Source: Tribonema minus
Lineage: Eukaryota; Sar; Xanthophyceae; Tribonematales; Tribonemataceae
DNA: 64,000 nt
Direction of reading: 5' to 3'
NCBI GenBank assembly: GCA_017506865.1
Contig: JAFCMP010000246.1
Coordinates: 248,001-312,000, forward strand
In this document: positions 883 through 64,000 of the stretch, one piece after another
How positions within the stretch are numbered: position 1 is the stretch's first letter
Layout of the letters: each line of letters opens with the position of its first letter
Position numbers and translations under genes: made by a program
Notes under the pieces: model-generated
Seen by the model: the letters and a program-made list of their open reading frames with translations, nothing else
Database searches by the model: none
Told to the model about the DNA's origin: nothing

Positions 883-3800
883 TCATGACTTATGTGCGCA
901 CAGCGCTTTGCCATTGACGCCTATGCAGATCTGGACATGAAGAAGCGCATCAGTCAGAATACCAGATACCACAGCATGAAAGCAATGTGAAAGTGTGCAT
1001 CGATTACCGCCGCCGCCGCGAATCCTTTCCAACAAGCCAATATCCGCCCCCACTGCCACGGCCTGCCAGATGTCGTCCGCCTCGCGGCGCACTTCAACTT
1101 CAACTTCAACTTCAACATCTTGCGCCAGCGCGCCTGACCCCGCTTCGTGCTGCGCTACCGCCGCCGCCGCTGCAGCGCCCTGCACCGTTGCAAATACGAA
1201 GCCGTTGGCGACGCTGTGGATGCCCGCTTCTTGCAGCGCTTGCGCGTACGCAGCAGCGACGGCGTCGCCGTCGCCGTTGCCCTGCTCGGTTATGAGCGCA
1301 GCGTACTCCTCTGCTGTCCACGGACGGCCGTAGCTGACGGTCATCTGCACGTGCGGCTGTGGGCTGGACGCACCGCCTGCGGCGCCGCCTGCGTCGCTGC
1401 TCCACCAGCGCTTCGCCTGCGCGCGGCAAGTTTCAGAGAAGTGTCAAAGCTTAATGGCAATGTCGTTCAGAAGTAAACGCCAATTCGCGTCGAGGCACTT
1501 GTGAGCTGTTGCAGGATACATGTAGGATCCGGTAGCAAGCTGGACAACCACCATCTGGGCTTGTTTGCGCCCTAACTTAGTAAGCGAGATTAATAAAACA
1601 TTTCAAAGAAGCATGAATGTGCGCTGCATGCAAAACACCAAAGTCGAGGGTGCGCGTGCCAGCCGTTAACAGGCACTGCGCACCACTACGACCCTGTGCG
1701 TGCGTCTGTGTGTGGGGCGGGGGCAGCTGCTGAGCATCCGCGCGAGCGCACATCGCCTGCACACGTCAAATGACGCATCCGCGTTTCGACAGTCAGACAG
1801 GGAACAGCGGCGCCAAGACCTTTGCAGCCAGCTGCACTACAGCAGCGCGCTCGTCAACCGAGCAAAGCTCACTGAGGTCTGTACCCCCCTGCTGCTGTCA
1901 TTGAAGTGCTGCATACGCTCCTTCCGAGAGCGGCACGGTGCGCACAGACACCCCCAGGGAAAAGCACAAAGAGACTTGCAGCCATCGAGTCAAGTCTTCT
2001 GAAAACCAGCATGCAGTAGTCTAGGACTGTCCACAGCGCTCAACCGACCTTGTCGGCGTACTGCTCGGGGTTCACCAGGTTAGACACCACGTACAGCCCC
2101 CCGCCCTCCCCCTTCAGTCGTTTCTGCGCCCCCGCAACCACCGCTGACAGCACCTCCTCCCCGCCGCTGCCCCCTGCCCCAAACCCCTCGAGCGCTGCCG
2201 TGTCCCCCGGGTTGGGTATGTAGGGCGGGTTGCAGAGGATGACGTCGTAGCGCGCATCTGGCGGTAACGCGTCGTACAGGCTGCCGTGGAACACCTGCAA
2301 TTTTGAGCCAAAAACGAATCAGGTGAAACAAAGGATCGGAAGCGCTGGCCGTGAAGGCACGCAGAGTATTGCAGCACGCCAGACGACGAAGACTGCAGAG
2401 GATGGCGCCATAGCGTAGCGCGCATCCGGCGGTAACGCGTCGTACAGGCTGCCGTGGAACACCTGCAATTGTGAGGCAAAAACGAGTCAGCTGAGACAAA
2501 GGATCGACAGCGCTGGCCGTGAAGGCACGCTCTTGAGCATTGCAGCGTGTGCAAAGGAAAATGTTGTAGTGCAGTTATGCGCATGAGTCATTCGGACTCG
2601 TGAGTACAGCGTGGTTATGGAGGTCCATACGTGAATAGTCAACTGCTTTGAAGTACTTACTTGCATGATGCAGGCTGACATCGAATTGTGCGTGCTTCGC
2701 AGCATGCGTGCGTGCTGATGTCTCAAGCCCATGTGGACTTGTAGTCATATCGTGGCAGCCAAGGTCCCGAGAGCGGCCTGTTGTTGTGCATTCACAGGAA
2801 ACTGAAATGCACGCAGTACCTCCAACTGCGCCGTACCCCGGCTCTTTGCAGATTGGCTGTGCGGTGCCTCCCTAGCAGCATGTCCGCCCCACGTCTATGC
2901 GACCTTGGTAGCAGTACATGTTCAAGTTGAAGTGCAGGTTGTTCAGCAGACAGTGCTAGCCACTGCGTCCGACACAGACGGCCGCGGTGTACTTCAACTA
3001 CCGGCTGCCCATACGCGACCTGCAATGCATTGCAGCAGCGCGCATTCACCAAGTCTGGCAACCTACAAACCATGCCCTCCCAAGTCAGCCCCCCTATGAA
3101 CAACAAGTCGCACATGCCGCTCAGGGCCATCCCGTGCAGCGCACCCACTCAGAACAGCAAATCGCACAAAAAACAAACACTTCAAAGTTAATGTAAACTT
3201 CAACACTCAGAACAGCAAAGCGCACACACAAAAAAAACTTCACAGTCAATGTAAACTTCAACTTCAATATCCGCGCTCGCCTGTGCCTTGCTGAGCATGC
3301 CGTTGAGCGCCAGGTTGAAGCGCGCGAAGCGCGCGGCGCGCGCGCTGACGTCGGTGAGGTGCGCACTCCCCGCGCCGCCCGCGAGCGCGATGATGGCCTA
3401 CGCAAGCACAGCGGTGCAGCGCATCGAGGTCGGTGCGGTCCGTACAACGCCCGTGAGACAGTGTGACAAGCCGCCAAAAGCGACACAGAGCACTGCAGAT
3501 AGAAGTTTGGCTCTGTGGAGAATGGATGGTTTGTACTGTTGCTTGGTGCCTGGAAGACTTTTTCCAAGTGTCTGCTGGTCTGCCTGTAGTTGGCTGCACT
3601 TTTGGACATGGAGTTTCGAGTGTAGTTGGGGTCCCGCACTGTCTGCTACCAGTGACGGACGGTGCCCTGAGCGAACAGATTGAGGTATTGCGGGGGGCCC
3701 CGCAACACAGCGAACAAGCAATACAGGGCACTGCAGCCTCGACAGCGTGTACGGTGCTCATAAACCTGTAGGCTTGTAAGCGCAGCGCATCAGATCAAGG

Positions 3801-6711
3801 TCCTTGCCAGGGCCCATGATCCAATGTGACAAGAAAATGCAGGGCCGTTTGAACACTGATTATTGACACCTGGCTGACTGCGCACAGCGTGTCTGTTACT
3901 CTGGCCCAATGTTGGGCGGATGTCTGCGGCATCTGCACGCTTGTGCACAGAGGAATTTTGTGTGGCGGGTCTGCGGCGCTGCACAGTCCACCTACAGTAC
4001 AGTGAACTCTGACCGCTTCATGGCGACCACTCCCAGCAAGTCTGCAAAAGCCGCATGTTGGTCACTGCGCTGCCACAAACACTCTGCAAGGCGCGCATGA
4101 CGCGTGCGCCGATGGAAACACTCCTTCGCGCACTGCACGGCGGAGCCCTGCTACTCGCTCAGTGGCGATGCTTGCATCTTCACGGTAGCGCTGCTGTCGG
4201 GAGCCAGCGCGCGCGGTGCAGCTGATGCCGCAGCAGCAACTCAGCAAGCGCACTACTGTAAGATCGGGCTCGCAAACGGCGCGACGCGCACCTGCCCGCT
4301 CGCACCTTCGTGGCAGCACCGCTGCCGAGCGGCAGCGGCGGCGCTGCCGTCACGAGCCGGCACGCGCGCGATGCAGCCAACACACAAAAGCAACCCAGCC
4401 AGCAGCTGACCTGACTCTAACCCTAATCCTAGCCCTGACCATAACTCTTTGCTGTAAGCCACACACCCTGCGAGCTAGCAAATGGCGCGCAACACGCACC
4501 TGTACGCCGGAGCCGCAGCAGACGTCCAGCACCGCCGCGCTGCGCAGCGGCGGCGGCGGCGGCGCGGCGGCTGCGAGGCCGAGGCTGTCCACGCCGACGT
4601 GCATGACGGGGTCGACGCCGTGGCGGCGCGAGGACGTCTGCGCGAAGTCGGTGGCGACGACGGCGCCGTGCCGCAGCGGGCAGAGCTGCACGGTGGACGC
4701 GAGCCGGATGCTGCTGCGCGCAAAGGGGGATGTCACCTTCAAATTTGAAAGTTGAACTTTGGTGGACAAGAGCTGGCGCGTGCAGGAGGGGGCAAGTCAA
4801 CTTCAAATTTGCGAGTTGAGGTTATGCTGCGCGACGACGTCGGGGCGAAGTCTGCGGCGACGACGTCGGGGCGAAGTCTGCGGCGACGACGGCGCCGTGC
4901 CGCAGCGGGCAGCTGCGCTGTCGATGCCAGGCTGAAGCTGCGCACAAAGGGGAGTGCCAACTCGAGTTTGAAAGTGGGATGCTGACTTCAATTTTGAAGT
5001 ATTTGTTTTGCAGCGAAAGCGCGAGGACGTCTGCAGCAGCAGCGTGGAGGTGGCCTCGCCAATGAACGCAACTGAGCCATCGCGCTAACCCTGCCTGTAC
5101 TCCTGATGTACCCTCACCCTAACTGCAACCCTATCTTCAACCCCTGTCCATGTCGGCGGGCTTGCGCCCTTCGCCGCCGTGCAGCACGGCGAGCCACAGC
5201 AGCAGCGCGGCGGTGGCCTTGCCAACGAGCGCAACTGAAGCATCATGTCAAACCTACTGTTAACCTGATTTCCTAGCCGCAACCCGAACGTTCACCCACA
5301 CTTCAACCCCTGACCTGCCGAACATGTCAGCGGGCCTGCGCCCTTGCCGCCGTGCAGCACGGCGAGCCGCAGCAGCAGCGGTGGCCTCGCCAACGAGCGC
5401 AACCGAACCATCATGCTCAACTCACCCATTGATTCCTAGCCCTAGCCCTAACTCCGCCACCAACCTGCTGTCCATGTCGGCAGGTCTGCGTCCCTCGCCG
5501 CCGTGCAGCACGGCAAGCCGCAGCAGCAGCGCGGCGGTGGCGTCGCCGAGGAGCGCGACAACGAGCGGCGCCGGCAGCGTCAGGTTGAGCACAAACAGGC
5601 GTACCAGGTCGCACAGGGCGTCGCTGCCCTGCGGATCAGACACGGCAGAGGCATTTGCATTGGGTCAGCGCCGTGCTGAAGTATGACGCTGTTGCAGTCA
5701 TCATGCTGTGAATAAGAAGTACACTTTGAGGAGGATGCAGCGCCGGCAGCGTCAGGTCGAGCACAAACAGGTGCACCAGGTCGCACAGGGCGTCGCTGCC
5801 CTGCAGGCCATACACCGCAGAGAGGGTTTGCGCTGGTCAGCGTCATGCTGAAGTGTGCAACTGTCAACAGTCATACTGTGAAGTATGCTTCGAGGTAGAT
5901 GCGGCACGTGCAGCATCAGGTTGAGCACCAACAGGCGCACCAGGTCGCACAGGGCGTCGCTCCCCTGCAGATCACACACACGGCAGAGGGGTTTTTACGT
6001 GAGTCCGCATTGTATACGCGCGGCTGATGTTGTGTAACTCTCACAGTCGTTGGTGCATCACCGTGCTGCGAAGTGGATTACACACGGCAGAGGGGATTTG
6101 CATTGGTCCGAATTGTACGCGCGGGGCTGAAGATATGAGACTCTCATAATCATACCGTGAAGTACACTTTTGAGTACGTAGGATGCGGCATGAGCTTGCC
6201 GAGCACTGGCGAACTTCCTCAAGTACTTGAAGTACATGTCAACACGCATCCGCATACAGGCTGCACGAGCACCACTCCAACTTCTGCAGCTAACGCCTCA
6301 GCGCATCAGGATCCGCTCACTGCACCACACTCAAGATATGTTGTAACCACCGAAACGCTGCAGCGCATCATCACGCCACTGGCTCCTTGAAGTTATGCAC
6401 AGAATGTTGAAGTTTACCTCTTCCGGCAGCGCGTGCGACACCTCCGCCGCCACGGGCGGGAGGCTCAGCTTCTGCAGGGGGTACCCTACCGCCGCGTCGC
6501 CGCCGTCAAAGCCCAGGACGCGCGCCAGACCGGGCACCGTGAACGCCGCCTCCGCGAGCGTCTGCCTGAGCGGTGACAGCGTATGTTCCCACTGAGCATC
6601 GCTGCTGACGTCTGTCCGCTCCTCCTCCCCTTCTGCCGCTTCTGCAGTAAGCCAGGCGCGCGCACGCATCACGGCAGCTAGGGGATTAGGGTCAGCAGCA
6701 CGTGTGGACAT
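883..6711 (-). CDS. SAM-dependent methyltransferase, HemK/RlmG-like small-domain type
   Basis: Predicted class I methyltransferase using S-adenosylmethionine; the substrate is unknown. Exons, in transcript order: 6711-6418, 5628-5465, 4713-4500, 3397-3281, 2294-2049, 1416-883 (about 522 residues, all phases consistent). Exons 1 and 2 give an N-terminal helical domain (LRQTLAEAAFTVPGL, then DALCDLVRLFVLNL) like that preceding the catalytic fold in bacterial-type methyltransferases of this class. Exon 3 ends in SAM motif I (VLDVCCGSGVQ). Exon 4 gives the acidic-loop and helix region (TDVSARAARFARFNLALNG). Exon 5 carries the catalytic NPPY motif (VILCNPPYIPNP). Exon 6 has a Trp-Thr-Ala-Glu-Glu-Tyr stretch and an Ala-rich, (Val-Glu)n tail. 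The start is the ATG before Ser-Thr-Arg at 6711; an upstream Met in the same frame has no support. The intron after 3281 appears to have a GC donor. The last about 40 residues and the stop at 883 are uncertain. Introns contain echoes of exons 2, 3 and 5. Confidence 0.8.
2395..2475 (-). repeat. partial echo of methyltransferase exon 5 with its acceptor
   Basis: A second copy of the intron 4 acceptor and the first about 50 bases of exon 5 (reading GSLYDALPPDARY in the copy) lies about 165 bases upstream of the real exon. It then diverges. It sits inside the intron and is probably not used, because it lacks the NPPY half of the exon. Confidence 0.8.
4835..4975 (-). repeat. echo of methyltransferase exon 3 start
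   Basis: This stretch repeats the first part of exon 3 (the Leu-Cys-Pro-Leu-Arg-His-Gly-Ala-Val-Val segment), including the Cys-Ala-Gln acceptor context. A block of about 21 bases encoding part of the TDFAQTSS region is itself duplicated within it. It lies upstream of the real exon at 4713-4500. Confidence 0.7.
5000..5400 (-). repeat. three tandem echoes of methyltransferase exon 2 end
   Basis: Three decayed copies of the exon 2 tail (GDATAALLLRLAVLHGGEG region) follow the real exon in its intron, at about 5305-5400, 5140-5235 and 5005-5065. The first two are spaced about 165 bases. They are separated by degenerate CCCTAA-like sequence. The first two still read as recognisable peptides in shifting frames. 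Confidence 0.75.
5739..5980 (-). repeat. two tandem echoes of methyltransferase exon 2 start
   Basis: Two copies of the exon 2 start (QGSDALCDLVRLLVLNL-like, each next to a Cys-Ala-Gly acceptor context) lie upstream of the real exon at 5628, at about 5739-5812 and 5905-5978. Spacing between copies is about 165-185 bases. Exon 2 is therefore flanked by head echoes on one side and tail echoes on the other. Confidence 0.75.
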
Positions 6712-7009
6712 GGGGGAATGGGGGCGCGCACGCGCGTTGGCATGGCAACCAAGTATCAGCACCAAGTCGAATGCTAGCATACTTCTGAAGCAGCATTGCG
6801 AAACCAGCAGAATTGCATGAACAAACTTCAGCATGTGACGCCCCGACAGTCTCGCGCACCGCCATCAGCGCCGGCGCGCTCGCGCAGCCGCAGCACGCGC
6901 TGCGCGGACGTGGCAGGCACGCGCGGAAGCCACCTTGCACATGGAAGCCGCCGCAGCGAGCCCCGCTCACCGACAGCCCCGCTACGCGACGGCAGCGCTC
7001 CATCATCCA

Positions 7010-9002
7010 TCAGTACTCCAGGCAATAGGCAACAAATGCAACATTCGACGCCCAGTGACAAGGGCTCCACGCACCGCCGTCAGCGTCGTCACGGTCCCGC
7101 AGCTGCAGCGGCGCCAGTGCGCTCTGCACTGCACGCCACTTGGCCCGCCCCCGTGGCAGCCCCTCGCACGTGGCCACCTCGCCCTTGGCGGCGGCGCGGC
7201 GCGGCCAGATGGCGGTGATGGCGGCGCCGGCGCGCGCGTCGTACAGCAGCGCGGCGCTGCGATGGCGGCGGCGGCGGCGGCGCAGGGGGGGGGGGGGGCG
7301 TGAGTGTTTCGCGTGAGGCGAGGGGGGCTGCTCTAGGAGGTGGATGTTCTGATTGAATGGGTGGCGAAAAGGATCGGAGTGACGCATTGCGATGGAAGTG
7401 GCGTACGGTCACCGGTGGCGCGGCGTCTCTGGCAGCAGGCCGACGCGCTTGCGCGCCCTCGCATGGAGATGACATGTACTGCAGTCGCGATAATGACAGC
7501 TGCACCAGCGATGCAGCTCGATTCTCTAGGTCGCCGCCTTGGAGTATGCAAGGTGAAAATGTCGCCAAAACGACAACGGTCACGATGACTTGACGTACGC
7601 AAGGAGCTCACACAAGCACATACAAGAGTCCCAAGGAACTGGTGGTCTCACACATGTTTACAACTCGAACGGTTTGATAAAACCTCACAACACTGTGTAG
7701 CATTTGCATCTTTATGTTGCAGAGCTTCCTGGCGAGACTCTCGGGGTCCGCGCAGCGCTCGAGAGGTGCCCACATTCTGTGAGGCCTACTCAGTACGAGA
7801 ACTGAGGAGTATGCCACACATGTGCCAGTACACACACGATAGTCACGCCCCCTGCACCAGCTGGGAGAGCGCTGCTTTCTCTGAGACCTCCCGCGGTAGG
7901 ACAATACCAGCAGACAACACAAAGCTCCTGTGGTGGCACTGTGTGGCTCGTGGCCTCTGACCGCAGCAGCGGCGACGACGGTCATTGGTGAACGGCTTTC
8001 AATTTGACGGCTGACCACACCTTGTCACCTAGAGCTACACAATCTTTTGATCCGTTTCCACAAAACTCGACCATGTAGGCATGTACCTGAAGACGGCGCC
8101 GTCCCCGTCCCCCTCCTCCCCCCACGCATCCGGCGGCAGCAGCCGCGAGCCAACCTCGTCCATGACGTACGTGAAGTCGCCGTCCGCGCCCGCGCTGTAC
8201 GCGCCGGTGAGCGTCCACAGGCGGTCGAGCGCTGCCGCGGAAGTTTGAACTTCAAGCATGGCAGCGAGCCGCTCGCCGAGGGAGGGCACGGCCTCGAGCT
8301 GAGCGTCGCGCACACATGGAGGGGGTGTGAATGGCCGGTTGCTGAGCTACAGCAGGAGGATGAGATGCAGGGCATATGGAATAAGGCTGGACACACCACG
8401 CTGCTGGGTAGCTTGATGCTCGCTGCTGCGTCACTGGCGTAGCCTGATGCAGTATCAGACGGCACGCGTGATAGAATGCGAACAGCGTTGGTGTCTAGAG
8501 ACCGGGGCAAGGTTTACACCGACCTTGTTCTGCATCTTGTAGCAGCCACCGGCATCGACGATCATGCTCGACACCTCTTTGGTGCTGAATGGCATCACTT
8601 GGAGGAAGATGGAGGAAAAAATTGATGATGCAGAACCCCACTGCGCACAAAATGCAACTTGCACCAGCACTCAGCACACACAGAGGATGCCGCAACCTGA
8701 TGCGAGCGACGCACCTGCGCCTGTGCTGTCTCGGCCGTGTCGAAGGTCCACATATGGTCGATCAACCAGACACTTTCGCATCGCTCTACCTCCCTCGTCA
8801 ACACCATGCACATTTGGGGCTGCTCATCTTCCTGCAGCGCAAATGCCAACGCGTCGCCAGCGTCAAAAATCTCTTGGGTCCATTTCACATAGAGCGCACG
8901 CCATAAGCTCTCTGGGATGGCCTGATCTTCCAGCTGCTGCCTCAAGCAATCCAGCCATCCCGCGTAGGGATCTGCCGCCACTGCAATTGCAGCCATAGTC
9001 AT
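7010..9002 (-). CDS. short TTLL12-like protein (N-terminal region only)
   Basis: Exons in transcript order: 9002-8715, 8574-8524, 8298-8087, 7256-7010 (about 265 residues, phases consistent). Similarity is to the N-terminal, SET-like half of tubulin-tyrosine-ligase-like protein 12. Exon 1 has ADPYAGWLDCLRQQLED, EIFDAGDALAF and VWLIDHMWTF; exon 3 has FTYVMDEVGSRLL; exon 4 has AITAIWPRR. In animal TTLL12 these blocks precede a C-terminal ATP-grasp ligase domain of about 350 residues. Nothing of that domain is visible before the next gene starts at 6711, so this looks like a stand-alone N-terminal protein with unknown biochemical activity. The exon 4 tail holds a possible donor (GGC-G/GTGCGTGG), and an echo of that tail lies at about 6866-6915. 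The true 3' end could therefore differ from the stop at 7010. Intron 3 carries a copy of the dispersed repeat just after its donor. Confidence 0.75.
8010..8072 (-). repeat. dispersed ~60-bp repeat, copy a
   Basis: On the minus strand this reads like copies at 18131, 34577 and 44940: a GGAAACGGATCAAAAGAT segment, then an AGAGCTC-like block replaced here by TAGCTCTAGG, then GACAAGGTGTGG. It begins about 14 bases after the donor of TTLL12-like intron 3, in the sense of the gene. Confidence 0.75.
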
Positions 9003-9244
9003 GTAGTGCTTTTTCCTCGCTCATTTCTCGCATCGAACCTTGGGAGGTGACTCTCCACTTCGCCTGAAGTTGTTTTACGCCTGAAGTTGAAGGTTGAAAC
9101 AAGGACAAGTACACACAAAATCAGAGCTGGGAGCGGTGCAGCTGGTTTGTTGCTGCTGCCGATAAGCTGCTTCTCCTAATGCAGAGACTTGCATGCCTCT
9201 GCAAGGAGGCAGGCTGACGAGGGGGGGGGCGACTTTGATGCTTG
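9003..9244. promoter_or_regulatory. shared divergent promoter region
   Basis: The 242 bases between the start codons of the TTLL12-like gene (-) and the sulfotransferase gene (+). Both 5' untranslated regions and promoters must fit here unless there are upstream non-coding exons. It contains two near-identical GCCTGAAGTTG words at about 9062-9090 and a G run at about 9222-9230. No clear TATA box. Confidence 0.5.
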
Positions 9245-14725: not shown

Positions 14726-27729
<13,004 letters not shown>

Positions 27730-46859: not shown

Positions 46860-47097
46860 CGCTTTGACCGCTTGACTGTCAATATAATGACTCAGTGCAA
46901 GAGGGTTGGGATGTGCGCATCCTTCATCTCCACACTCAATTTTCGGCATTTCTTAACTTCCAGAACTCGTCCGGCCAGTTCTTTCTTCACCGCAGTTCTC
47001 GGGAAAAACGGCGCGACCACAAATCCTTGACGCTCCTGGCTGGAGGACGCACACATACGATTAGAGCACGCTGAAGCCAGTCAGGGAGAGGCAGATT

Positions 47098-50000: not shown

Positions 50001-50952
50001 TGGAATCAAACAACAGCTTACCGTTGAAATCTCAACAACAAAAAATATCTGTGGCTTTTGGGGCACTGCGAAAGACAACAGTAGAAGTAGGGGCGTACTC
50101 ACGTTATTTCATATGTCATACGGCGCAGCAGGCGCAGTTCGCATGACTGCTGCCTGCTGTCCCTGTCTTGTCTTGAAAGCGGGTACCTGAACGCATGTTC
50201 AACTTGCTTTAGGGTTTGAGGTAACAGGGGGCTCCACGGACCCCAGGCGTGGCTTGTGTGACCAGTGAATGGGCAAATGTGACCTGCGCTCTGTGATTGA
50301 TGCTTTGCCCGTCGCGGGTGTGAAGTTAACGCGCCATCCACTGCATACCGCTGCTGGCGTCTGTACACTCATATTGTCGAGTTAAGTGCTCTAGGTACAC
50401 ATGTACATGTGTACATGCTTTGAGAAGCGGACGACCATCTACATGCACTTTGTATATTCAGAAGTTCTGTACACATCTTGTCAGTTCCCGCGTTGGACGC
50501 GAAACGGATGGATGTCAAGCTTGGCACCAGGATCTCCACGCACCTCTTGACACAGCATCTCAAGGCGCATTGTTGACCATCACCCCTAACCGACATGGCC
50601 ACATGGCATCACCCCCCACTACATCCATGTGCACACTTGAAGTTCATATGTATACTTCAAGTTCATACTACAAGTTCATACTTCATTTAATCTAGTGCAT
50701 ACTTCAAGTTGAAGTATATCTGATCCCCATCCCCCCCCCCCCCCCCCCCCCCTGCCGCAGGTCATGTACCTGGCGCTCGGCTCCGTGCACCCCGTCACGC
50801 TCGCGGTCGGCAACACGCTCAAGCGCGTCTTCATCATCGTCGCCAGCCTCGTCGTCTTCCGCAACCCCATCACGCCCGCCGGCGCCGCGGGCAGCGCCGT
50901 CGCGATCGCGGGCGTGCAGCTCTACAGCTGGGCGCGGCAGCGCTACTCGTGA
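47098..50952 (+). CDS. plastid triose-phosphate-transporter-family protein (DMT superfamily)
   Basis: Predicted multi-helix antiporter exchanging phosphorylated C3/C5/C6 compounds for phosphate across a plastid envelope membrane; substrate not determined. Exons: 47098-47370, 47934-48287, 48585-48719, 49286-49519, 50761-50952 (395 residues, phases consistent). Exon 1 has a signal peptide (LLPLAVVALAGA), the plastid motif ASTLAP and a His/Gln-rich transit region. The TPT fold begins with FYFALWYALNIAYNIANKRA and continues with FTHIVKAAEPLFSALVAA, VGGVAVACAKELNFSWVSF, SNLFFALRANYSK, LSGLTHYLNNE and HPVTLAVGNTLKRVFIIVAS, and ends with FRNPITPAGAAGSAVAIAG. The TPT-family lysines and arginine that bind phosphate (in NIANKRA, KAAEP and NTLKRV) are present. 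Intron 3 has a GC donor (AAG/GCAAGT). Echoes of exon 4 occur on both sides of it. Confidence 0.93.
49143..49205 (+). repeat. echo of TPT-family exon 4 start
   Basis: A CGCAG acceptor and the exon 4 head (VLMQKR, then GRNVEPANLFALIT with small changes and a one-base shift) lie about 140 bases upstream of the real acceptor at 49285. The copies are separated by three CTCTTGAAGTTG units. Confidence 0.9.
49595..49925 (+). repeat. three echoes of TPT-family exon 4 end
   Basis: The exon 4 tail (QLAWLVALSGLTHYLNNE) recurs at about 49610-49670, 49745-49800 and 49860-49920, progressively decayed. The first still reads LVWLVALSRLTHYLNN before a stop. Spacing is about 125-135 bases. Confidence 0.92.
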
Positions 50953-52641: not shown

Positions 52642-55600
52642 ATGTCCCTGCTGGAGAGGGCCCGCGCCTTCCATGAGGACATCGAGACCTATGAGATGGC
52701 GATCATCAAGGAGCTGGAAGCGAAGCCAAAGACCAACAAGGAAAGGGTGTATCAGCAGCATAGGGTGGCCAATCTGCTGAGCCAGGCCGTGGCGCGGAGC
52801 AAAGAGCTGGATGCCATATATGAGGACAAGGATGATTCAATGAAACAGGAGGTGAGGTTTGTTGTTTCAGTCTCTGTGCAGTGTAGCGCACGCGCAGGTG
52901 TGCACACAAGCCGAGGCAGTGTGCAGCAGCAGGCAGCCAAGAAAGTAGGCATTTCAGATAGGCGCAGGGTCTCTGGAACAGACGCAAGCTGTAGCGCAAG
53001 ACGGCTGCGTCTGGATGACTACTGGTCTGTGCAGGCCGCCGACGGCGAAGAAACGCAGCAGCGGAGCGGACTCGTTCGAGCACACCAGCAAGCATCGGCT
53101 GCAAGGCGTTGCTCCAGTACAATCCAGCTCAATGGAATCACAACGCAAATCTTGGACGTGTTCAGGCTGTTTTGTCTGTAGAACAAAAAAGAACGCTTGA
53201 TTGGTTTGGTTTTCTTCGTGGGAAGAGGGAGCCATCTGATCGTCAGCCATGATTTCAGGAAGAGACATACATGGCTGTCACCGTTATGTTGACGTCGCTC
53301 TCCAGCTCCAATACTGAACAGCAGCGTTTTCAAACATGTCTTGAGCACCGTCATTATGCCAGGGACCTGCAGACTTGCTCCAGAAAGGTTGGCACCAGTT
53401 GCTTTACGGCGTGTAGCATGGACAGGCACGGCAAGCAGCAACACAGGTTTTGTGGGACAGCCAAGTACTGAAGTTAGTCGGGACGTTAATGCATGCTGCT
53501 ATTATTGAACAGTGTGGTTGCTGTACAAGTAGCAGGCAGCCTCAATACGCTGGGTGCGTTTTGATTGGGTTGGGGGCGCGCAAGTTGAAGCTTGAAGCGC
53601 GCTCGCTCAGGATCATCTGATCAGCATTGCGAATTGTTTCAAGGTATCGATCAAAATGGCCGCCGTCGCATGGTGACATGAACTGTCCGCGCTCTGACTG
53701 CCTCTACAGCGCTGACGTGTGCGATGTCCAGCAACGGGCACACCAAGGCGACGTAATGATTGCCCCGTGCAGATCCTCAATACACGCAAGGCCCCCGACG
53801 AAGTTTCAGTGAAGCGGGATTTGGCAGTGCGAAATTGCAACTTGTGGCGTTGCACGATCTGTCCGGCAGTGGGCACAACGTGGTGACGTAGGATTGCTAC
53901 GTGCAGAGCCTCAGCACACGAGGCAGCTAATTTTTCTGAGCACCAGGGACAACAAAGGTTTCCCGGAGCGTGATCTTTGCAACGCCACACCTCAACATGT
54001 GGCATTACAAGTTGGATGTTGATGCGTGACCTCTGGTTGTAGTCTTCTGCAATTCAAGCCGTCGCAACACTGACAAGAGCTTCGGATGTTCAAGCAAACT
54101 TATACTTTTACGATAACCTGCAGTATACAAACAATGCGTCATGCAGTGTGGTTGCACACACACAGTTTTGGGAACGCCGGTTTGAGTTGGATCGCCTGTG
54201 TACTCACTTGAGGTAGAGATGGTGCTCTCACAATCGTGCACAGATGCGAAGAGGTGCATTTGGCTCCGATTCGCAGCGGTACTTTGAAACTTGTCATGAC
54301 AGGGCCAAGAGCCTCGGAGCCTCAGTCATACGGCTGATACGAAACAACAACCTGCACTTGCAGCCCAAGAGCTCGCGCCACGCGCGTCGGCAGCTGCACG
54401 TGACTTCAACTTCAACTTCAACTCATCGCCTTTCTTTGCACCTCCCTCTCTTTCTGCAAGTCGCGTGCAGTGGCGGCGACGGCGCGCTGTGAGGTACTCT
54501 GACATTTGTGCTTACTTCAACTTCAACCTTCGACTTCCCTCACGATGACTTGCCCTTGTGTCGCGTGCGCGTGCGCTGCAGGTGGCGGCCATGCGCGGCC
54601 GCGACGCGCTCAAAAACTTTTACGACCGCGCCAAGAGCTCGTGGAGCTACCACGCGCGCTACCCCGACCTGCCCGTCAACACGGGCCCCAACATCGACGA
54701 GGAGAAGGAGCCCAAGGTCCGTTGGCGCAGCGCGCGCCGCAGCAGCAGTACCCTGTGGCACGGCTCCGCAGAGATTTCACGCATATGTCCAGGAAGTTCA
54801 TCTATGGCTGTGTAAAGATGTACGCTCATTTTCATGGGGCTCATTTATGCTGCTCTGTTGCATGCTCATGGCCCGCCAGCTCGGGGCCGCTGCGAGTTTT
54901 TCGGTGCGGCAGCTGTTGCCCATCCATAGATGCATAAGAATATGCACAAGCATGGCGTAAGAATATGCAAAAGCCTCAACCTCCTCTCGCCGTCTCCTTC
55001 ATGGCATTGAGCTCGCCGCCGCAGGTCATTAGTGCCCCCCCCCCCCCCCCCCCAACAGTAGTGGTCGACTTGGTGATTGCTTTACTATTCCCCCCCACCC
55101 CCCTCAACTTGGTGATTGCTTTACTATCCCCCCCCACCCCCCTCTTACCCCCCCACCCCCGCAGGTCACCTTCAGCGGCGAGGAGCTCTTCGGCAAGCAC
55201 TTTGACCTGCACGACCTGTACGCGCGGTGGGTCAATTCGCCTCAGTGCTCCGACAAGCGCCTCGACTACGGCGCATATTTGGCGGGCCTCGCGGCGCTGG
55301 GCGACGTGCCGGAGCGCGCCAAGCGCAGCAAGGGATATGCTGGGTATGTGGCGGACCTGGAGGCGTACCTGCGCGGGTTCCTCGCGCGCACGCAGCCGCT
55401 CGTGGACGCCGACGAGGTGCGCGCTGAAACTTCAAGTTGAAGTATAACCGCACGCTGCGGTTTTGTACGCCCAGTGGTACTGGGTGTTCACGCACGCGTG
55501 TGCTGCAGAGTTTCCGGTTGCGCACAAGGTGCCGTAGGCCGCCGCCAGCAGAGCAGCAGGGTGATCAGTGCACGGGGCCTTGCTCGTACTACACTGCTGC

Positions 55601-58600
55601 TACTACGCGCCTGCTGCGTGTGTCTGTTTTTCACTACCGCCGCGCTACTGCCCCGACGCGCTACTGCCTGCGGGGGTTCCGCGCGTGCGCACGCAGCCTC
55701 TCGTTGACGCTGCCAAGGCGCGCGCGCTCGTGACCGTGTAGTCATTGCTCAGGCATCGCTGCGCCTATCGCAGCTGAGCGTTGCCTCCGCGACGCCTCGA
55801 ACGCAGCCGCTGGTGGGCGGTGCAGCGCGCGCGGCTGCACGCCTGACAATGTTCCGGGCTGGCAGGCGCCGGATGCAGTGTTGGTGCTGAAGACGGTCTG
55901 TGTATCTGCTCCAGTCGTGGACTTGAGAATGCGCTACGCTGTGAATGCGCTCATGTGGCCTAGCCCTCGCTAGCATCAAAGGTCTTTAACGCCGGCATCG
56001 AGTCACAAACGCGGGTGATTGCGTGAACATGGTTGCGTCCGCTGCTACTGCCAAGGCAGAAGCGGTTCCGCTGCGCTCGCACTGCACCCCAGCGCCCTGA
56101 GCCCGACCCTATCCCCTTACCACCATGACCTTGATCCTAAGCAATGGCCGTTGAGGCCTTCACGCAGGGCATGCGCATCATCTCCCCGACGCTTCCACGC
56201 CACATTCAACTTCACGCATTAACTTCAACCATTGACTTCAACTTATCGTCGCAGATCGTCAAGGAGGCGGAGGCCGAGTTTGACAAGGCCTGGGAGGCCG
56301 GTCGCGTTAAGGGGTGGCCGCGCGTGTCCAAGGCGGCGCCGCACAAGGCGGCAGCGCCAGGTGGCGGCCTCACAGCGCGCCACCTGGACCTCTCCCTGTA
56401 CCATGCCGCGGAGGACCTGATGCCGTTAGGGCTCGATCGGCTCAAGGAGGCGCTGGAGGTCAGTGCTCATGGCGTGGCTTGAGTAGAGTCATAGAGTCAT
56501 GACTTGTGGGCCTGAATATGTAGGAGGCGCTGGTCAGTGCTCGTGGCGTGGCACGAGTAGAGACGTATATTCATGACTCGTGTAGTGCAAGTAGAGTTGT
56601 AGCATCATGCCTCGTGGGCCTCGACAGGCTCAAGGAGGCGCTGGAGGTTGGTGCTCGTGCTGTGGATCAGGTAGAGACGTAGAATCATGACTTGTGCAGT
56701 GCAAATAGAGTCATAGAGTCATGCCTCGTGGGCCTGGACAGGCTCAAGGAGGTGCTGGAGATCAGTTTCTGTCGCCTGTCTCATGTCCAGTCGTAGTTTA
56801 AAAGTGGTTGTCATGTAGTACAAGGGTTAGGGTTAGGGGGGGGGGGTAGGGATGGGGAGAGTCACAGCTTGCTGCATGTAATTGCGCTGTCGTCGGTGGA
56901 TTACATGACATGAAATTATCTACATTGGCTCTACACGCGATGGGCCCTGCTTGACACGCCGCAGGCGCCTGGCCTCACTGATGCCAGCGCACCATGACCT
57001 GTTTGTACTGCCGCTAGTACACGGCAGTACACCGATGGTACGCTGCACTGCTGAGCGCTGTCGTGACAGTGCGCGCCGCGCGCAGGCACTCAACTTCAAG
57101 TGTGTCGCCCGCTCACTCACCGCTGGCTCGTGCATGACATTTTGCTGCTCAAAATCGCATGACCTTTGACAACGACATGTATTCAAAACAAAATGGGTGT
57201 TCCTTGACATGCCGCAGGCGCGCGGCTTCAAGTGCGGTGGCGTGAAGGCTTAGTCACTTGTTGATTCGCCCCTTCTCCCTCACACGCACTGCTGGTTCGA
57301 GTATACCATTTTGCTGCACGAAGTCGCGTCGACATCGATGACCATGTTGATTCTGAACGATTGCGCCCTTCTTGACATGCCACAGGCGCTCGGCCTCAAG
57401 TGCGGCGGCACGCTGCAGCAGCGCGCGGAGCGGCTGATGGCCGTCAAGGGGAAGAAGCCTTCCGAAATTGACCCCAAGGTGTGTGCTCGACGAGAAAGCC
57501 GCATGCATCACTTTACAGTTTCGAGTAATTCCACTGCTATCACCATTCAGCAAACGCAAGGGGAAGAAGCCCTCCGAGATTGGCCCCAAGGTGTGCGCTT
57601 CATCAAGAGAGCCATCAAGAGAGTCGCATGCATTAATGCCCATTTTCAAGTATGTTCACCTCTTCAAGTTTTCATGACTTGACGGCCAATAAGCCCTGCG
57701 GAATTGACCCCAAGGTATGTGGTCGATGAGAAACACGCATCAGTTCGCATGCATCAATTCTCAGTGCGCTCAACAAGAAAGTCGCATGCATCAGTCCACA
57801 TTTTCAAGCAACGTCACTTTTTCAGGTTCCGTGGTGAAGTGAAAACGGCTGTGCAGCTGGCCTTTGAGAGCACGAGGAGGCGGTGCCTACCGCGCTGCGC
57901 CTGGCTCAATGTTGGATCTGCAAACTTGTACTTCAAGTTGAGACATCATGGGGCTTCTACTCGTTGCCGCCACTCCAGCAGCATCAAGCAGTCCCACCAG
58001 ACTGCCGCGAGGGTTATCGCAGCAGGTTCACTGAGGTCGCTCTTAGCAGCTGCAGTCTGTGCGACGTGTGCCGTGCTGCGCTGGCTCAATGTTGGATCTT
58101 CGCAGTTGTACTTCTGGTTTAGACATTCATGGAGTCTCCTCCTCTCGCTGCTGCATAGCCCTGATTGCGCTTCTGCCCCGTCCCCTTTGCGAGCAGCTGT
58201 ACAAGGTGCAGGGGGGGGGGGGTATGCACATGGGTTTATTGACAAAGCGCAGGCAGTTGCCGAACCACCAGTAGAGAGTGAGTTGATTCGCCCAACTGGG
58301 GAGTCCATCTTCTCAGGGTTACGGTCAGGGTTTGAGTGACCTGGCCCTAGCACAATTTGCGCTGCTGCCCGGCGCTGCTTTGCGAGCAGCTGTACACAGT
58401 GCAAGAGGGGGGTGCGCATCCAAGGAGCGTGTGCAGTTGACGCACCGCAACAAGGAGTGGAATAGTTCGCGCACCTGATTCACAGAAACGGCTGATTTGC
58501 CGACATTGCGTGAGGGTGGGAACAGAATCAAAGGTCAGAGTTGCTGCCAGTTTGCTGCACCGCAGCACCAGTGGGGCACTTGGAAGCAGTGCTGGGTATG

Positions 58601-61600
58601 GTAGTATGTACAGGGTAGGGGGCAACACGCCTGGCACACGTCACGAAGACTGCAGATGTTGAGCGCGCCCTCAATCAAATTCTGCGATAACCCTCGGCAA
58701 TGGTAGGGCTGTTGAATGCTTCTGGAGGGTTAGGTCCCTCAAACCCTGACAGTAACCCTGAGAAGATGGACTCCCCAGTTGGGCGAATCAACTCACTCCC
58801 TACTGGTGGTGCATCAATTGCTTGCGGTCACTCAACGAACCCGGTGTGCATACCCCCCCCTTGCAATACGCGTACAGCTTTTGGCAAAGGGCGCGGGGCA
58901 GAAGCGTAATGGCCCCCCCTCTGATGGCCCCGCTGCCAAGCGCCAGAACGGCAACGGCGCAGACGCGGCGGATGCCTCCGGCGCCAAGACAAATGGCGTG
59001 CCCAACGGTGAGTGACTCTTTGACTCTAGACTCTGACTCCGCATCATGACAAGACGACAGGCAGAAATTGTGTCACACGCCAAGACACAATTGGCGTGCC
59101 GAATGTGAGTGACTTCTTGACTCTAGGCTCGGACTTCGCATCATGACAAGACAACGCACAGAAATTGGGGCAGACGCCAGGACAAATGGCGTGCTCAACA
59201 GCGAGCGACTTCGTGACCCTAGGCTCTGAGTCTACGTAATGACAGGACGACACACTTGAGCTGTGGTGGAGGTCGTCCGCTCCTCGCGCTGTGTGATGCT
59301 GAGCGCTGCCCTAACCCTAACCCTAAGCACTGGATGAATCTAACTCTGGCTGGTTGTTTGTGCTTGCGCTGGCAATGGCGCAGCCGCCTATCCCTACGTT
59401 TGACCCTTAACCCGCACCCTAACCGCAGGTTAACCCAAACCCATTCTGTACCGTCACCCAAACCCTCAACGCCAACCCTACTTTTCCCTGCTACATAGGT
59501 GAAGTTCTCAAACTGCGGGTGACGCTGCAGAGCTTGACTGTTTTGCCGGCAGTTGATTCTTGCTGCTGAGCAGTGAGCCTGTCTTTTGTGGCAGCAGTGT
59601 ATGTATGTATCTGTCGCTGCTGAGCACTGCATCCCGGCACCTGATGCATGTGTTTAGCGGGTGGTGTGAACACCGCACCTTAGGGTTAGGGTTAGGGTTA
59701 GCACACATCAAATGGCTGGCCAGACAAAGTGAGTGACCGGCAATTGCAAAACTAGGAGGTGGCAGTCGGCGCATGGGCACTTGCGAACGTCACTGCTGCT
59801 TTGCGCTTGAGCACTCATCAAGCAATAAGGCAAGCAGCTTAGGGTTAGGGTTACTTAGGTTTAGTGCGGCTCGCGTGATAGCCGCCGTGCGTGCAATCGC
59901 GTTGCTGCCCTGCCGCCGGCATTCATCAGTCCCCTGTCACCCTTCCGCAGCAGCAGTTGCAGCAGTTACCTCTGCCCTCTCCCATCCATGCCACACTCGG
60001 CGAGCGCTGAGCGCGTCTCGCTCACACCATGCGTCATGCGGCGAAACGGCACTGCAGTAGAACGAAAAGCGTGAATTGTCACACCTTATGTACCGTGACT
60101 GATGAACATCGTGCACTGCCACTGCAGGTAAGATCGAGGGGGGCGAACCACCCAAAGACTACGGTCCTTCAGCAGCAGTGGTTCTGGCGTTTGGCGCAGC
60201 TGCTCAGCATCGGTCAACTGCACTCGGCAAGTGTTGACTGTGTCTCATGTCGCGCGTCGCTTTGCCACACCATGCCGTTGCAGGCAAGAGCGATGGCGGC
60301 GACTGGCGGCGCAGCACAGCGGCCGCGGAGGCGCGCGTGCGCGCGTTCCTCGAGGCGCTGAGCGATGTGTGGGAGGCCACGCGCAAGCAGGTGACTCTCC
60401 CTCAAGATGCGCTGCAGATTATTGTATGTAGGTCGTGGTGGTGCCAAGGCAATGTTCACCACGGGTGGGGTGCAGCGGCGACGGTGGACGGCGTGTGTGC
60501 GTGGCCTGTGTGCGCACGTTTCTCGAGGCGCAGAGGGATGTTTGCGGGACCTCTGGCGTCGACTGATGCATGTTCGGTCCGCGACGTTGCCCGCGCGTGC
60601 GTGCATGCAAAGGTCGAGAAGCAGCAGACGCACGCCGTCACTTGTCACGAGGTACACGTAACTCCTGGCACAGTTGCAAGCTCGAGAGCAGTCGCCTGCG
60701 CCGTTCCGTGCCCCGAGCGAGAATCGTTCAACAGCCCCTGTGCGTCCGTGTGTGCGCATCGCCGGTGGCGGTATGCGTGGCGTTGGCTCATGCGTGCGCG
60801 GATCGCAACGCTGTTCGCGCCCTCGTGCAGGTCAATAAGTACACACTTCCAAGTATACATCATCTGTGTGAGCGCAATATGTATTGACGGCATGACATAC
60901 GGCGTTAACTCATCCATCATCGGTCTGCGACGCTGCCGGCGCGTGCGCGCGCCTGCGCAGGTGGAGAAGAAGCAGACGCGCACCGTTGAGGAGCGCGATG
61001 CCGAGATCGCCGACGAGGAGGCGGGGACGCTGCCCGAGGTCGGGGATGGTGAGCGCTGCTGCCCCTGTTACATGATACATGAACGAATGAATGGATGAAT
61101 TGCGTCATATATGTGATATAGAAGGAAGAAGCATCATGCTTGAAAGCACCATGTTATTTTATGTATCGAGGTTGAAGATGGTGAGCGCTGCTGCCCATGA
61201 TTTTAACACATAGACCTGAATGCATGAATGAATTGACATCGCAGTTTAAGTACATGATGAGAAAAATGAGCGTCATCCTTGAAAGTATTGTACTTGAAAA
61301 TCTCACGTTCTGATATGTGTTGAGGTCGGAGATGGTGAGCGCTGAGCGCTGCTGCAATACATAATTCATGAATGATGACTGAATGGCATTGTATCTTGCA
61401 CAAGTAGGAGAAAGAAGCATGAAAGTATCATGTTATGATACATAGTGAGAGGACGGAATTGGTGAGCGCTGCAGCCCCTGCTTGTGATGCATGATTTATG
61501 AATGAACGACAGTGCATCATACATGATCAAAAGAGACAAGCATCATAGTTGACGTATCACGTTATGATGTGTATGGTTGGTAGACATTGTATGTTATGAA

Positions 61601-63024
61601 CCTCAAAGGTTTATGCGAGTCATGATGTGTACTCACGGTACATATTGAGTGCTGCTGCACGCCGCCGCCAGGGCTGCCTGCTGCTGCCTCCACGCCGCAG
61701 CGCGAGCTCACCGCGCTAGTGTCTTCTCTCGTTCCTTCTCGCTTGTCTGTCCTAACCTGATCGGCGCTCGTTCATTGTGTCGTCAGCATCGTGAAGCGCT
61801 TGTCACTGTGTGCGGTGCGCCCGTCTCTCCTTTCGCCGCCGCTGCTGTCATGTGCGCGTTCACCCGTGCCGTGCTGCCACGCCGGCGCGAGGTGTGGTGC
61901 CGCCGACGCGCTGCAGCGCGCCCTTACCCTAGTTGTCATCCCAACCCCAACCCTAAACCCAAACATACTTGCTTCTTGCTCATCCGCCCACTCTGATCGG
62001 CGGTCGTCTGTCACCTTTTGTCTTGCAGCGCCCTGTCTTCTGGCTCGTCCGCGCTGCATGCCACTGTCATTCTTCCGTTCGCCACCTTCATGTATACTTC
62101 AGGTTAGGAAGTATGTTATATATACGCGTACTTTGTGACGTGCTCATATGTATGTGTGTCCGTCACTGCAGCCGACGAGGAGGACAGCGACGACGACGGC
62201 CCCATCTACAACCCCCTCAACCTCCCCCTGGGCTGGGACGGCAAGCCTATCCCCTTCTGGCTCTACAAGTTGCACGGCCTCGGGGTGGAGTACAAGTGCG
62301 AGATCTGCGGGGACTTCAGCTACTGGGGGCGGCGCGCGTTCGACAGGCACTTCCAGGTGATGATTCGAAGTTGGAGGAAAGTCAACTTCAACATCAACTT
62401 CAACATCACTGTGAGGTGTCAAATGTGGCTTCGCGGTAGGCTGGCCGCGTCCGATGAAATCTGCTCTGACTGCGTGCAATGCTGGGCGCCACATGTGTAG
62501 CGAGATCGGCAGCAGCGCGCGTGTGACAGGCACTTGCAGGTGATGATGACAGAATTGTCAAGACCAGCTTTAACAGCATGGTGTTGTTGACACACTGTTC
62601 AAGAAGGCCACGGCGCCTAAAATGTAGACTGTGTGCTTTGATCGCCCGCATGCTTGATGTCAACTGCCTTCTAGGGACCCCCTGCAACTGGAATGGTGTA
62701 CTTTTGAGTATGAGCACTGCTGTACTTTGAAGTATGAGCAGTGTGTGCGGAGCCTTCAGCTGCTGGGAGTGACATGCTATGCTGACTCTATGTAGCCCTA
62801 ACCCTAGTCTCAAACCCCTTGACTCAGATGCCCAACAGCAGATCCATCCCAGACTCGCTGATCCCTCATCGGGAAATGGAATGAGTGGCTTGTGTGTCTG
62901 ACCGAATGTCCGCGCCCTTCCCTTGTGCGTGCGCTCTGCACTGCAGGAGTTCCGGCACGCGCACGGCATGCGGTGCCTCGGTATTCCCAACACCAAGCAC
63001 TTCCATGACATCACTCTCATCCAG
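52642..63024 (+). CDS. SF3A3: splicing factor 3A subunit 3 (SF3a60/Prp9), 3' end incomplete
   Basis: Subunit of the U2 snRNP SF3a complex, needed for branch-site recognition. Exons: 52642-52851, 54582-54716, 55165-55416, 56255-56458, 57386-57478, 58878-59007, 60284-60390, 60961-61048, 62172-62356, 62947-63024 (494 residues, phases consistent). The start [18 protein letters not shown] aligns with the family N-terminus. Then [55 protein letters not shown], the SAP-like [20 protein letters not shown], and the hallmark [19 protein letters not shown]. The matrin-type zinc finger [18 protein letters not shown] continues into [19 protein letters not shown] in exon 10. The family has about 40 more residues; a candidate exon starts at 63811 (DAEIPLVYMRVKDK) but is weak, so the gene probably ends beyond the window. 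Most introns hold exon echoes. Confidence 0.93.
54470..54500 (+). repeat. decayed echo of SF3A3 exon 2 start
   Basis: GCGTGCAG followed by TGGCGGCGACGGCGCGC resembles the exon 2 acceptor and head (GTGGCGGCCATGCGC) about 110 bases downstream. Confidence 0.6.
56515..56775 (+). repeat. three echoes of SF3A3 exon 4 end
   Basis: The exon 4 tail ([10 protein letters not shown]) and following GTCAGTGCTCRTGGCGTGG recur at about 56522, 56617 and 56726. The second and third keep most of [10 protein letters not shown], the third with Leu-Lys-Glu-Val-Leu-Glu. Spacing is about 95-110 bases. Confidence 0.9.
56820..56850 (+). repeat. short TTAGGG run with poly-G
   Basis: GGGTTAGGGTTAGG followed by a G run in SF3A3 intron 4; another interstitial telomere-like site. 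Confidence 0.8.
56955..57245 (+). repeat. two upstream echoes of SF3A3 exon 5 start
   Basis: TTGACACGCCGCAGGCGCC at about 56950-56985 and TTGACATGCCGCAGGCGCGC at about 57205-57245 copy the acceptor and head of exon 5 (ALGLKCGG). The second still reads [10 protein letters not shown]. Confidence 0.85.
57545..57725 (+). repeat. two echoes of SF3A3 exon 5 end
   Basis: The exon 5 tail ([11 protein letters not shown]) and GT donor recur at about 57553-57595 ([10 protein letters not shown] when read in a shifted frame; base identity is clear) and 57685-57720. Spacing is about 115-125 bases. Confidence 0.9.
58208..58340 (+). repeat. inverted repeat, left arm
   Basis: About 130 bases in SF3A3 intron 5 that are the reverse complement of 58733-58862. 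The most conserved part contains GATTCGCCCAACTGGGGAGT. Arms are separated by about 390 bases. A C/G run (58208-58221) marks the outer end. Confidence 0.9.
58733..58862 (-). repeat. inverted repeat, right arm
   Basis: Reverse-complement partner of 58208-58340. It contains ACTCCCCAGTTGGGCGAATC and ends in a C run only about 15 bases before the exon 6 acceptor. A transcript could fold into a long hairpin close to the 3' splice site. Confidence 0.9.
60440..60645 (+). repeat. echoes of SF3A3 exon 7 and of exon 8 start
   Basis: About 60468-60550 is a decayed copy of the exon 7 middle ([13 protein letters not shown]: here [13 protein letters not shown] by frame shift; base similarity clear). About 60565-60640 copies the exon 8 acceptor region and head (VEKKQTRTV, here VEKQQTHAV). 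Both lie in intron 7. Confidence 0.85.
61165..61490 (+). repeat. three echoes of SF3A3 exon 8 end
   Basis: The exon 8 end and donor (GATG/GTGAGCGCTGCTGCCC) recur at about 61182, 61330 and 61455. Each is followed by an ATGATACATGA-like and GAATGAATGG-like segment, with a period of about 125-145 bases. Confidence 0.9.
62490..62550 (+). repeat. echo of SF3A3 exon 9 end
   Basis: GTGTGACAGGCACTTGCAG followed by GTGATGATG copies the exon 9 end (FDRHFQ) and donor about 180 bases after the real junction at 62356. Confidence 0.85.
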
Positions 63025-63072
63025 GTCAGTGTTGAACGTAATTCGCCGATGTTCAAACTTGAAATGCTGTGC

Positions 63073-63130
63073 TGCTGCATTCCCAACACCAAGCACTTCC
63101 ACGATCTCACTCTCATCGAGGTCAGTGTGC
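63073..63130 (+). repeat. echo of SF3A3 exon 10 end
   Basis: [14 protein letters not shown] plus the GTCAGTG donor, about 100 bases after the real end [14 protein letters not shown]. The copy ends in Glu where the real exon has Gln. Confidence 0.92.
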
Positions 63131-63734
63131 TTTACATTTCGTAAAGTTACTTGACGCTTGAGGCACGAAAAAGCCCAGGTGACTGGAATATGTGATGCTG
63201 GAATAGTGCCGATGCTTTGCCAGGACGATGCAGCGCAAAGGCCACAACAGCCCCTATTATCAGATCCGTATAGCGCCCCTTGCCCACGGCAGCCTTGTCC
63301 GCCCTCCCCCCATGTATCCACACATGCGCAATTCGTCATCCTTCCATTGCGTGCGTGCCGCGTGCGATTTGCGTCAGCGAGCAGCTGCGCAGGTGCAGCA
63401 CGGCTCAGTGGCGCACATGGCAGTCGCACACAGCAGCACGCGGCATAGTGCATGGCGTTCAGGCCAGGATTGGTGCACCACACCTGTATGCGATGCTGGG
63501 CATCACTTGAAGTTTGCTTCAGAGAACTTGTTGAAGTTCATGAACCCTACGCAGTTGTTGTGTCAGCGCGAGATGCAGCGCACGACTTGCACAACTGGAA
63601 GGTCCACCGTGATGTGTGTGCGCATCGCTTGCGGCGTCAACACACATGGACGCAATGACAGCGCACGCCCTTCATGACGCCCGGTTTCAGGGCCCCCCTC
63701 AGCCCCCTCGTGTGAAATGGTTCATGCAACGTCC

Positions 63735-64000
63735 CGCTATTCTACATGCGTGTCAAGGATAAAACCCACAACTGCTGTCAAGCGGTGCTGAATTCGTCGT
63801 TCCACACAGGTAATCGTGGACGCCGAGATCCCGCTCGTCTACATGCGCGTCAAGGACAAAGCTCACAACATGCACGCAGTCATGAAGACATCCTGCCCGA
63901 AGCTGATGACGCAACGGACAACGCGGGCGGTTGTCGCACAGTGTGGTGCCGCGCCAGTTGACGCACGCCGTCTCGCAATTGGCGATCAGTTGGGCGCATT
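63735..64000 (+). other. candidate last SF3A3 exon (63811 onward) and its upstream echo
   Basis: A CACACAG acceptor at 63804-63810 is followed by an open frame to the window end, starting VIVDAEIPLVYMRVKDK. This loosely matches the family segment after the zinc finger (DAVSLWAKLK-like). An echo of the YMRVKDKAHN part lies at about 63742-63775, which argues that this is an exon, since echoes elsewhere copy exon ends. The later translation does not show the expected acidic and NKKTYEDL-like C-terminus. Confidence 0.35.

Follow-up and report, generated by a model that had tools for sequence, protein, structure and literature searches.

Intronic copies of adjoining exon ends in the yellow-green alga Tribonema minus, probable products of frequent small tandem duplication

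Introns in a stretch of the Tribonema minus genome appear to hold sequence that echoes the ends of their neighbouring exons. This raises the question of whether the echoes are real copies, by what process they arise and how splicing accommodates them. The window, meaning the whole 64,000-nucleotide stretch of DNA that was analysed, is part of the 158-Mb genome of this yellow-green alga and lies on a contig of 1,077,546 bases.

Splice sites of four genes were obtained from protein-to-DNA matching with T. minus proteins or, for gene G, with the EukProt transcript protein P0123. The four are a methyltransferase gene (A; 886-8595, minus strand) as annotated in T. minus P0122, a 13-exon HlyC/CorC-family transporter gene (D; 15116-27726, plus strand) with an exact spliced match to T. 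minus P0121, a 5-exon phosphate-translocator-like gene (G; 47179-50946, plus strand) with a spliced match to P0123 at ∼98% identity, and the SF3A3 gene (H; 52642-63024, plus strand), which has 10 exons within the window in one open frame and a spliced match to T. minus protein P0001. SF3A3 exons 1-5 are located at 52642-52851, 54582-54716, 55165-55416, 56255-56458 and 57386-57478, and exons 6-10 at 58878-59007, 60284-60390, 60961-61048, 62172-62356 and 62947-63024. The donor of gene A exon 3263-3397 is uncertain, and the upstream part of gene A, fused to the methyltransferase in annotation P0122, may be a separate gene. An RBBP5-like WD40 gene (F; 37490-46844, plus strand), a gene which we take to be DCN1-like and a sulfotransferase gene have partial models, built from frames and splice consensus. 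Of 20 long frames scanned with Pfam, 3 were named, and an Rfam search of the window returned no match. The EukProt proteins P0002, P0123 and P0142 were taken as Tribonema on 97-100% identity. GC donors were observed at 48720, 37626 and 11203; one of the 32 donors in the exact models is of this type (GCAAGT) and 2 more fall in hand-modelled genes.

The 60 terminal exon bases at each junction were aligned to the adjoining intron with a score threshold of 29.6. A copy of the adjoining exon end was found in its own intron at 22 of the 64 splice junctions of genes A, D, G and H. The same exon ends gave 0/56 matches to the intron on the exon's other side (Fisher p = 1.3e-7), and 0.53% of 1872 unrelated exon-end/intron pairs reached the threshold. 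Exon-end copies at these junctions are more frequent than chance would give. With the score cut-off raised to 40, 16 of the 64 junctions were retained and no unrelated pairs. The partly modelled genes were searched over 800-nt flanks at a threshold of 30, leaving out 3 of 25 junctions that could not be placed; copies were present at 7/22 junctions (RBBP5-like 6/11, DCN1-like 1/7 and none at the 4 sulfotransferase junctions tested), with control matches at 1/22. Pooling the fully and partly modelled genes gave copies at 29/86 junctions, about one third. The upstream part of gene A contributed one weaker copy (score 36). Intronic copies of adjoining exon ends in T. minus were thereby confirmed as real.

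Chance or base composition as the source was ruled out by the unrelated-intron and other-side nulls and by loci outside the window. A dispersed element was ruled out as well, as each copy matches its own neighbouring exon. The only long-distance repeats within the window were 11 short pairs, 26-131 nt long and in part telomere-like.

Copies within the methyltransferase gene were read on the minus strand. Exon 2049-2294 has an acceptor-side copy at 2394-2470, with an exon part 97% identical and the AG kept, and exon 4500-4713 has one at 4857-4941 in which the AG is lost. Exon 5465-5628 has three donor-side copies (5313-5403, 5138-5235 and 5033-5072) and two acceptor-side copies (5737-5804 and 5901-5974) with AG kept. 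The farther of the latter two, 5901-5974, is read as an extra exon in annotated protein P0122. A further minus-strand copy, at 33824-33852, is an acceptor-side copy of the DCN1-like exon starting at 33644.

On the plus strand, within the transporter gene, donor-side copies were located at 19321-19367 for exon 19007-19153 (GT kept), at 22286-22311 and 22426-22446 for exon 22066-22164 (16 nt of exon each), at 24292-24362 for exon 24039-24182 (GT kept) and at 24908-24950 for exon 24676-24831 (33 exon bases identical). Acceptor-side copies were located at 20763-20837 (farther) and 20986-21037 (nearer) for exon 21161-21328, both with AG kept, and at 27383-27463 for exon 27572-27726, the last in a tandem pair with a unit of 179 nt.

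The RBBP5-like gene (plus strand) has a donor-side copy of the exon ending at 38288 at 38432-38487 (98% identical over 62 nt; a further pair member begins at 38362), an acceptor-side copy of the exon starting at 39612 at 39420-39477 with a further copy near 39229, and a donor-side copy of the exon ending at 39830 at 39920-39974, followed by more repeat pairs to ∼40314. The exon ending at 41104 has a donor-side copy at 41203-41240, the exon starting at 42663 an acceptor-side copy at 42545-42589 with further pairs back to ∼41808, and the exon ending at 44347 three donor-side copies within 44458-44845. In gene G (plus strand), exon 49286-49519 is copied on both sides, with an acceptor-side copy at 49137-49205 (AG kept) and donor-side copies at 49589-49670 (GT kept) and 49871-49919.

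Donor-side copies in the SF3A3 gene (plus strand) were assigned to exon 3 (55667-55725, GT changed to GC), exon 4 (56522-56562, 56617-56656 and 56741-56766), exon 5 (57557-57599 and 57688-57724, GT kept), exon 6 (59078-59114 and 59175-59210), exon 8 (61167-61235 and 61322-61344, with 13-14 nt of exon only), exon 9 (62512-62547, GT kept) and exon 10 (63064-63128). Acceptor-side copies were assigned to exon 5 (57208-57241, AG kept) and exon 8 (60603-60638).

These alignments bear out most of the descriptive claims of the first-pass annotation. Its copies of exon ends or starts together with the splice site were recovered at 24 of 25 coordinates, each in or within 25 nt of an aligned copy. The exception was the acceptor-side copy proposed at 26010 in gene D intron 11, where the exon start scored 17 against the threshold of 29.6. 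Additional copies were found, including those at 4857, 5033-5403, 55667, 59078 and 59175. The count agrees with its estimate of copies in at least six of the eight intron-containing genes, and its view that nearer copies are better preserved held at 7 of 9 multi-copy junctions, with 1 tie and 1 reverse. The junction-wise alignment also upheld its proposal that local tandem duplication recurs and carries the splice site along when it crosses a junction.

Similar copies were sought outside the window in 14 of 20 requested stretches, 13 on other contigs and one on the window's contig; short contigs were under-sampled because six contigs were too short. Exons were predicted from codon usage, giving 64, of which 58-59 were counted (the others had fewer than 40 residues or short flanks). 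End-copies were found downstream of 10/59 exons and start-copies upstream of 8/58 (p = 0.0009), against 1/58 and 2/59 for the other-side controls. Internally repetitive-looking proteins were the source of all three control hits and of at least 2 of the 18 expected-side matches (L018, L014). Some proteins in the sampled loci appear to resemble ankyrin, leucine-rich and coiled-coil proteins. Among confirmed gene models on other contigs, a DIM1-type gene has copies at 3/6 junctions and at its last donor, and neither a GH26 gene nor a BTB gene has any (0/12 junctions). In view of the excess in the outside stretches and of these differences between genes, the junction copies are genome-wide but uneven.

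Copies with at least 15 exon bases numbered 31 at 21 junctions, 20 donor-side and 11 acceptor-side; 1 of 32 copies was left out for having less than 15 nt of exon. Exon parts of copies range from 13 to 94 nt; their distance from the junction they copy is 61 to 392 nt, with one at 553 nt. The splice dinucleotide is intact in 24 of 29 readable copies, and the neutral expectation is 0.80. Scored with a weight matrix, copy donors (n = 18) had a median of 7.28 bits against 8.31 for authentic donors (p = 0.35) and copy acceptors (n = 11) a median of 7.04 bits against 7.19 (p = 0.69), a random GT or AG scoring about -1; 18 donors and 11 acceptors give this comparison little power, and similarity-based copy finding may favour intact sites.

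Divergence was calculated for 17 junction-spanning pairs, leaving out 6 of 23 with too few sites and keeping two low-identity gene A pairs. The Jukes-Cantor (JC) distance was 0.171 for the exon part and 0.291 for the intron part, a ratio of 1.70; constraint on the exon original combined with a free copy should give a value from 1 to 2. The exon part thus diverges at ∼0.6 of the intron-part pairwise rate, near the half that constraint on the original alone would give. Gap columns numbered 30 per 752 aligned exon sites and 180 per 1535 aligned intron sites, ∼3 times more per site in the intron part. The copies decay about neutrally, on average. The fit is one of averages only, because 3/17 pairs show greater divergence in the exon part than in the intron part, and a few have exon divergence well under half the intron value, such as 0.014 against 0.171 for the exon at 27572.

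Direct orientation prevailed among the repeats. Self-alignment of the window gave 83 plus-strand and 2 minus-strand local pairs within 3 kb, and the sampled loci (132.5 kb) gave 135 direct pairs and 1 inverted within 600 nt. The sole inverted pairs within 3 kb in the window self-alignment form an inverted repeat in SF3A3 intron 5 (57973-58348 / 58633-58910) that extends into exon 6. The median spacing was 218 nt (245 direct pairs up to 1500 nt, window and sample together). Of nine well-preserved tandem pairs, six abut, with overlaps of 4, 1, 8, 7, 1 and 1 nt, and in the other three 4 to 11 nt are unmatched. Pair identities range from 65 to 100%, a spread expected of a continuing process. A rough rate of 0.013 to 0.019 duplications per base per substitution per site was estimated from 21-31 copies at 64 junctions, assuming independent events and a 130-nt target.

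We consider it probable, at roughly 70%, that the copies are products of frequent small tandem duplications, of which those straddling a junction are hidden by splicing and made visible by the conserved exon. T. minus would have a high, continuing rate of such duplications, with units mostly ∼60 to 400 nt, probably arising by slippage or by repair of staggered breaks. A unit wholly within a coding exon would probably be removed by selection. A unit straddling a junction would be tolerated because the exon-proximal site is used and the protein is unchanged; splicing would keep the junction copy adjoining the exon, and the surplus exon tail and donor, or acceptor and exon head, would leave with the intron. 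The intronic copy would then decay about neutrally while the exon retains the ancestral sequence, producing ladders of exon echoes. Because the exon keeps that sequence, such copies would remain recognisable after duplications of equal age within introns had faded from view.

Tolerance of this kind depends on splice-site choice. The exon-proximal site must be used, as the protein is otherwise not intact. P0123 and P0142 follow the exon-proximal sites, and P0002 agrees by eye with P0001 through exon 7, although the strain behind these transcripts may carry other copies. Sites in the copies score like the authentic ones and mostly stand 60-390 nt further into the intron, which suggests pairing by exon definition. 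In mammals, splice sites in short introns take their closest partner across the intron, and those embedded in large introns take theirs across the exon (PMC9225289). T. minus may likewise splice these genes by exon definition, and pairing of this kind would render the copies harmless. After exon 7 (60391-60960) the SF3A3-like transcript protein P0002 diverges from P0001, with an apparently shifted frame (proteins compared by eye); this departure suggests an alternative acceptor.

The best-surviving alternative is that splice junctions are true hotspots of tandem duplication, for instance through transcription-, splicing- or chromatin-linked breaks or slippage at exon edges. We regard this as possible but rather unlikely. 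In the four modelled genes 19/30 families span a junction, where a uniform simulation with conserved exons predicted 27-33%, a ∼2-fold excess. This set leaves out 27/58 pairs that overlap another family and 1/31 families inside an exon, and the simulation ignores large deletions and repeated events. The p value for 19/30 is 0.0014 if the true fraction is 0.35, 0.008 at 0.40 and 0.10 at 0.50. Local-repeat coverage also declines with distance, being 0.28 over the 50 intron bases next to the junction and 0.11 past 400. With exons masked, however, coverage in 16 long introns was 0.18 within 300 nt of the junction and 0.09 farther in, which is not significant (p = 0.20), and tandem duplications also occur in stretches of the sampled loci without predicted exons (9.5% coverage). 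Four window stretches taken as intergenic (6370 bases) contained no repeat pair, which counts against a uniform process. A uniform process together with the visibility of conserved exons accounts for part of the junction excess. The more specific proposal that junctions are preferred for recurrent duplication coupled to transcription or splicing, that introns grow outward from their splice sites and that the spliceosome picks the true site among one or more near-perfect neighbours by distance across the exon is similarly held to be doubtful.

Several other sequence features were recorded in the same introns and their surroundings. The 8-mer AACTTCAA/TTGAAGTT occurs 54 times in the window against ∼1 expected and 67 times in the sampled loci against 2; in the modelled genes 27 occurrences are intronic and 3 exonic (e.g. 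1091-1116, 49209-49251 and 62382-62408). Telomere-like CCCTAA/TTAGGG arrays are present at chromosome-internal positions, some intronic (27206-27367, 39042-39097, 4409-4446 and 40906-40943), and a short dispersed repeat, possibly a small transposable element, is found in both orientations (7931-8061, 18131-18254, 34578-34658 and 44939-44975). As candidate breakpoint motifs, AACTTCAA-like and telomere-like 8-mers showed no clear concentration: of 450 copy edges, 17 had the former and 18 the latter within 15 nt, against 2.9% and 2.3% of random positions.

It is quite improbable that selection maintains the copies for a regulatory role in expression, as alternative or decoy splice sites and pseudo-exons. 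Such a role would fit copy sites that score like authentic ones, the copy taken as an exon in P0122 and the departure of P0002 after SF3A3 exon 7. Retention of GT and AG is nevertheless at the neutral expectation, copy number and position vary from junction to junction, and the exon-like part, at ∼0.6 of the intron-part rate, is near the half expected without constraint on the copy. The intron/exon divergence ratio between 1 and 2 speaks, on average, against selective maintenance.

The first-pass annotation had likened the copies to intron gain by duplication of an AGGT-containing segment. Intron gain by that route was not supported, as the copies adjoin existing junctions and no intron was demonstrated as new; for the latter reason the case is not classed as intron gain by tandem duplication. 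Under the Rogers model these introns would have been gained, or be remnants of gains, through tandem duplication of an AGGT segment of an exon; this is accordingly given a very low probability. The duplicated units extend over existing junctions and take in intron sequence, and the introns are at least 297 nt long and only partly covered. The copies lie in the intron adjoining the source exon end and in 0/56 cases in the intron on the other side. Hellsten et al. reportedly described a small tandem duplication in ATP2A1 that itself supplied the splice sites. In the potato RdRp gene an intron was created by tandem duplication across an intron-exon boundary (PMC4974935), the same class of mutation as considered here; the potato unit crosses that boundary as do the T. 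minus acceptor-side copies. The T. minus copies differ from both cases in lying in existing introns, in leaving the protein unchanged and in affecting about one third of the junctions analysed, some repeatedly. Misassembled repeats giving false tandem copies are scarcely credible, for although tandem regions are hard to assemble, most copies clearly differ from their original, the pattern is side-specific and the divergence of exon parts differs from that of intron parts in the manner expected biologically.

Tandem exon duplication is a familiar way in which local duplication yields extra exon-like sequence. It was rejected here, with 0/31 copies holding a whole exon and a longest match of 94 nt of a 164-nt exon (queries of up to 120 nt of exon). 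Whole-protein tblastn likewise gave partial copies only in the genes mapped. The T. minus copies are instead partial, beginning or ending at the junction, and none is known to be spliced in. In Daphnia pulex, newly gained introns carry direct repeats of exon ends, for which staggered double-strand breaks were held responsible; these repeats are 4-12 bp long and lie at the opposite end of the newly gained intron, and internal repeats are present in 61% of new and 16% of established introns (PMC4202315). Both systems repeat terminal exon bases in introns, and passive intron lengthening was proposed for Daphnia in the same paper. Exon parts in T. minus, however, are 13-94 nt, usually accompanied by the splice site, and lie 61-392 nt (one 553) from their own junction, so that repeats of the Daphnia staggered-break type were rejected. 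Introners and transposon-derived introns (PMC9860276) resemble the T. minus copies as a genome-wide process shaping introns. The copies themselves appear to share no element; they are gene-specific, each derived from the exon beside it, and 0.53% of the 1872 unrelated pairs reached the threshold. Among the listed titles and abstract openings from the open-licence PMC literature, there was no earlier description of junction copies in Tribonema or in such a form.

That tandem duplication is the main source of intron sequence, as the first-pass annotation suggested, was not borne out. Detectable local repeats of every kind cover ∼20% of intron bases, a lower bound, and 11% at 400 nt or more from the junction. 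Introns bearing echoes are longer (median 875 nt, 21 introns) than the others (662 nt, 20 introns; one-sided p = 0.03), which fits lengthening of introns by copies.

The junction copies offer a concrete route of intron lengthening. As one of them is read as an exon in P0122, they may also cause gene-prediction errors in the T. minus genome. The ancestor of each copy can still be read from the exon, so that every copy serves as a neutral fossil, and rates of intron substitution, indel formation and duplication could be measured within one genome. The introns of T. minus form a natural experiment in splice-site choice, in which duplicates of comparable strength are in competition and the exon-proximal one has to prevail if the protein is to survive, and exon definition is thereby made testable in a stramenopile alga.
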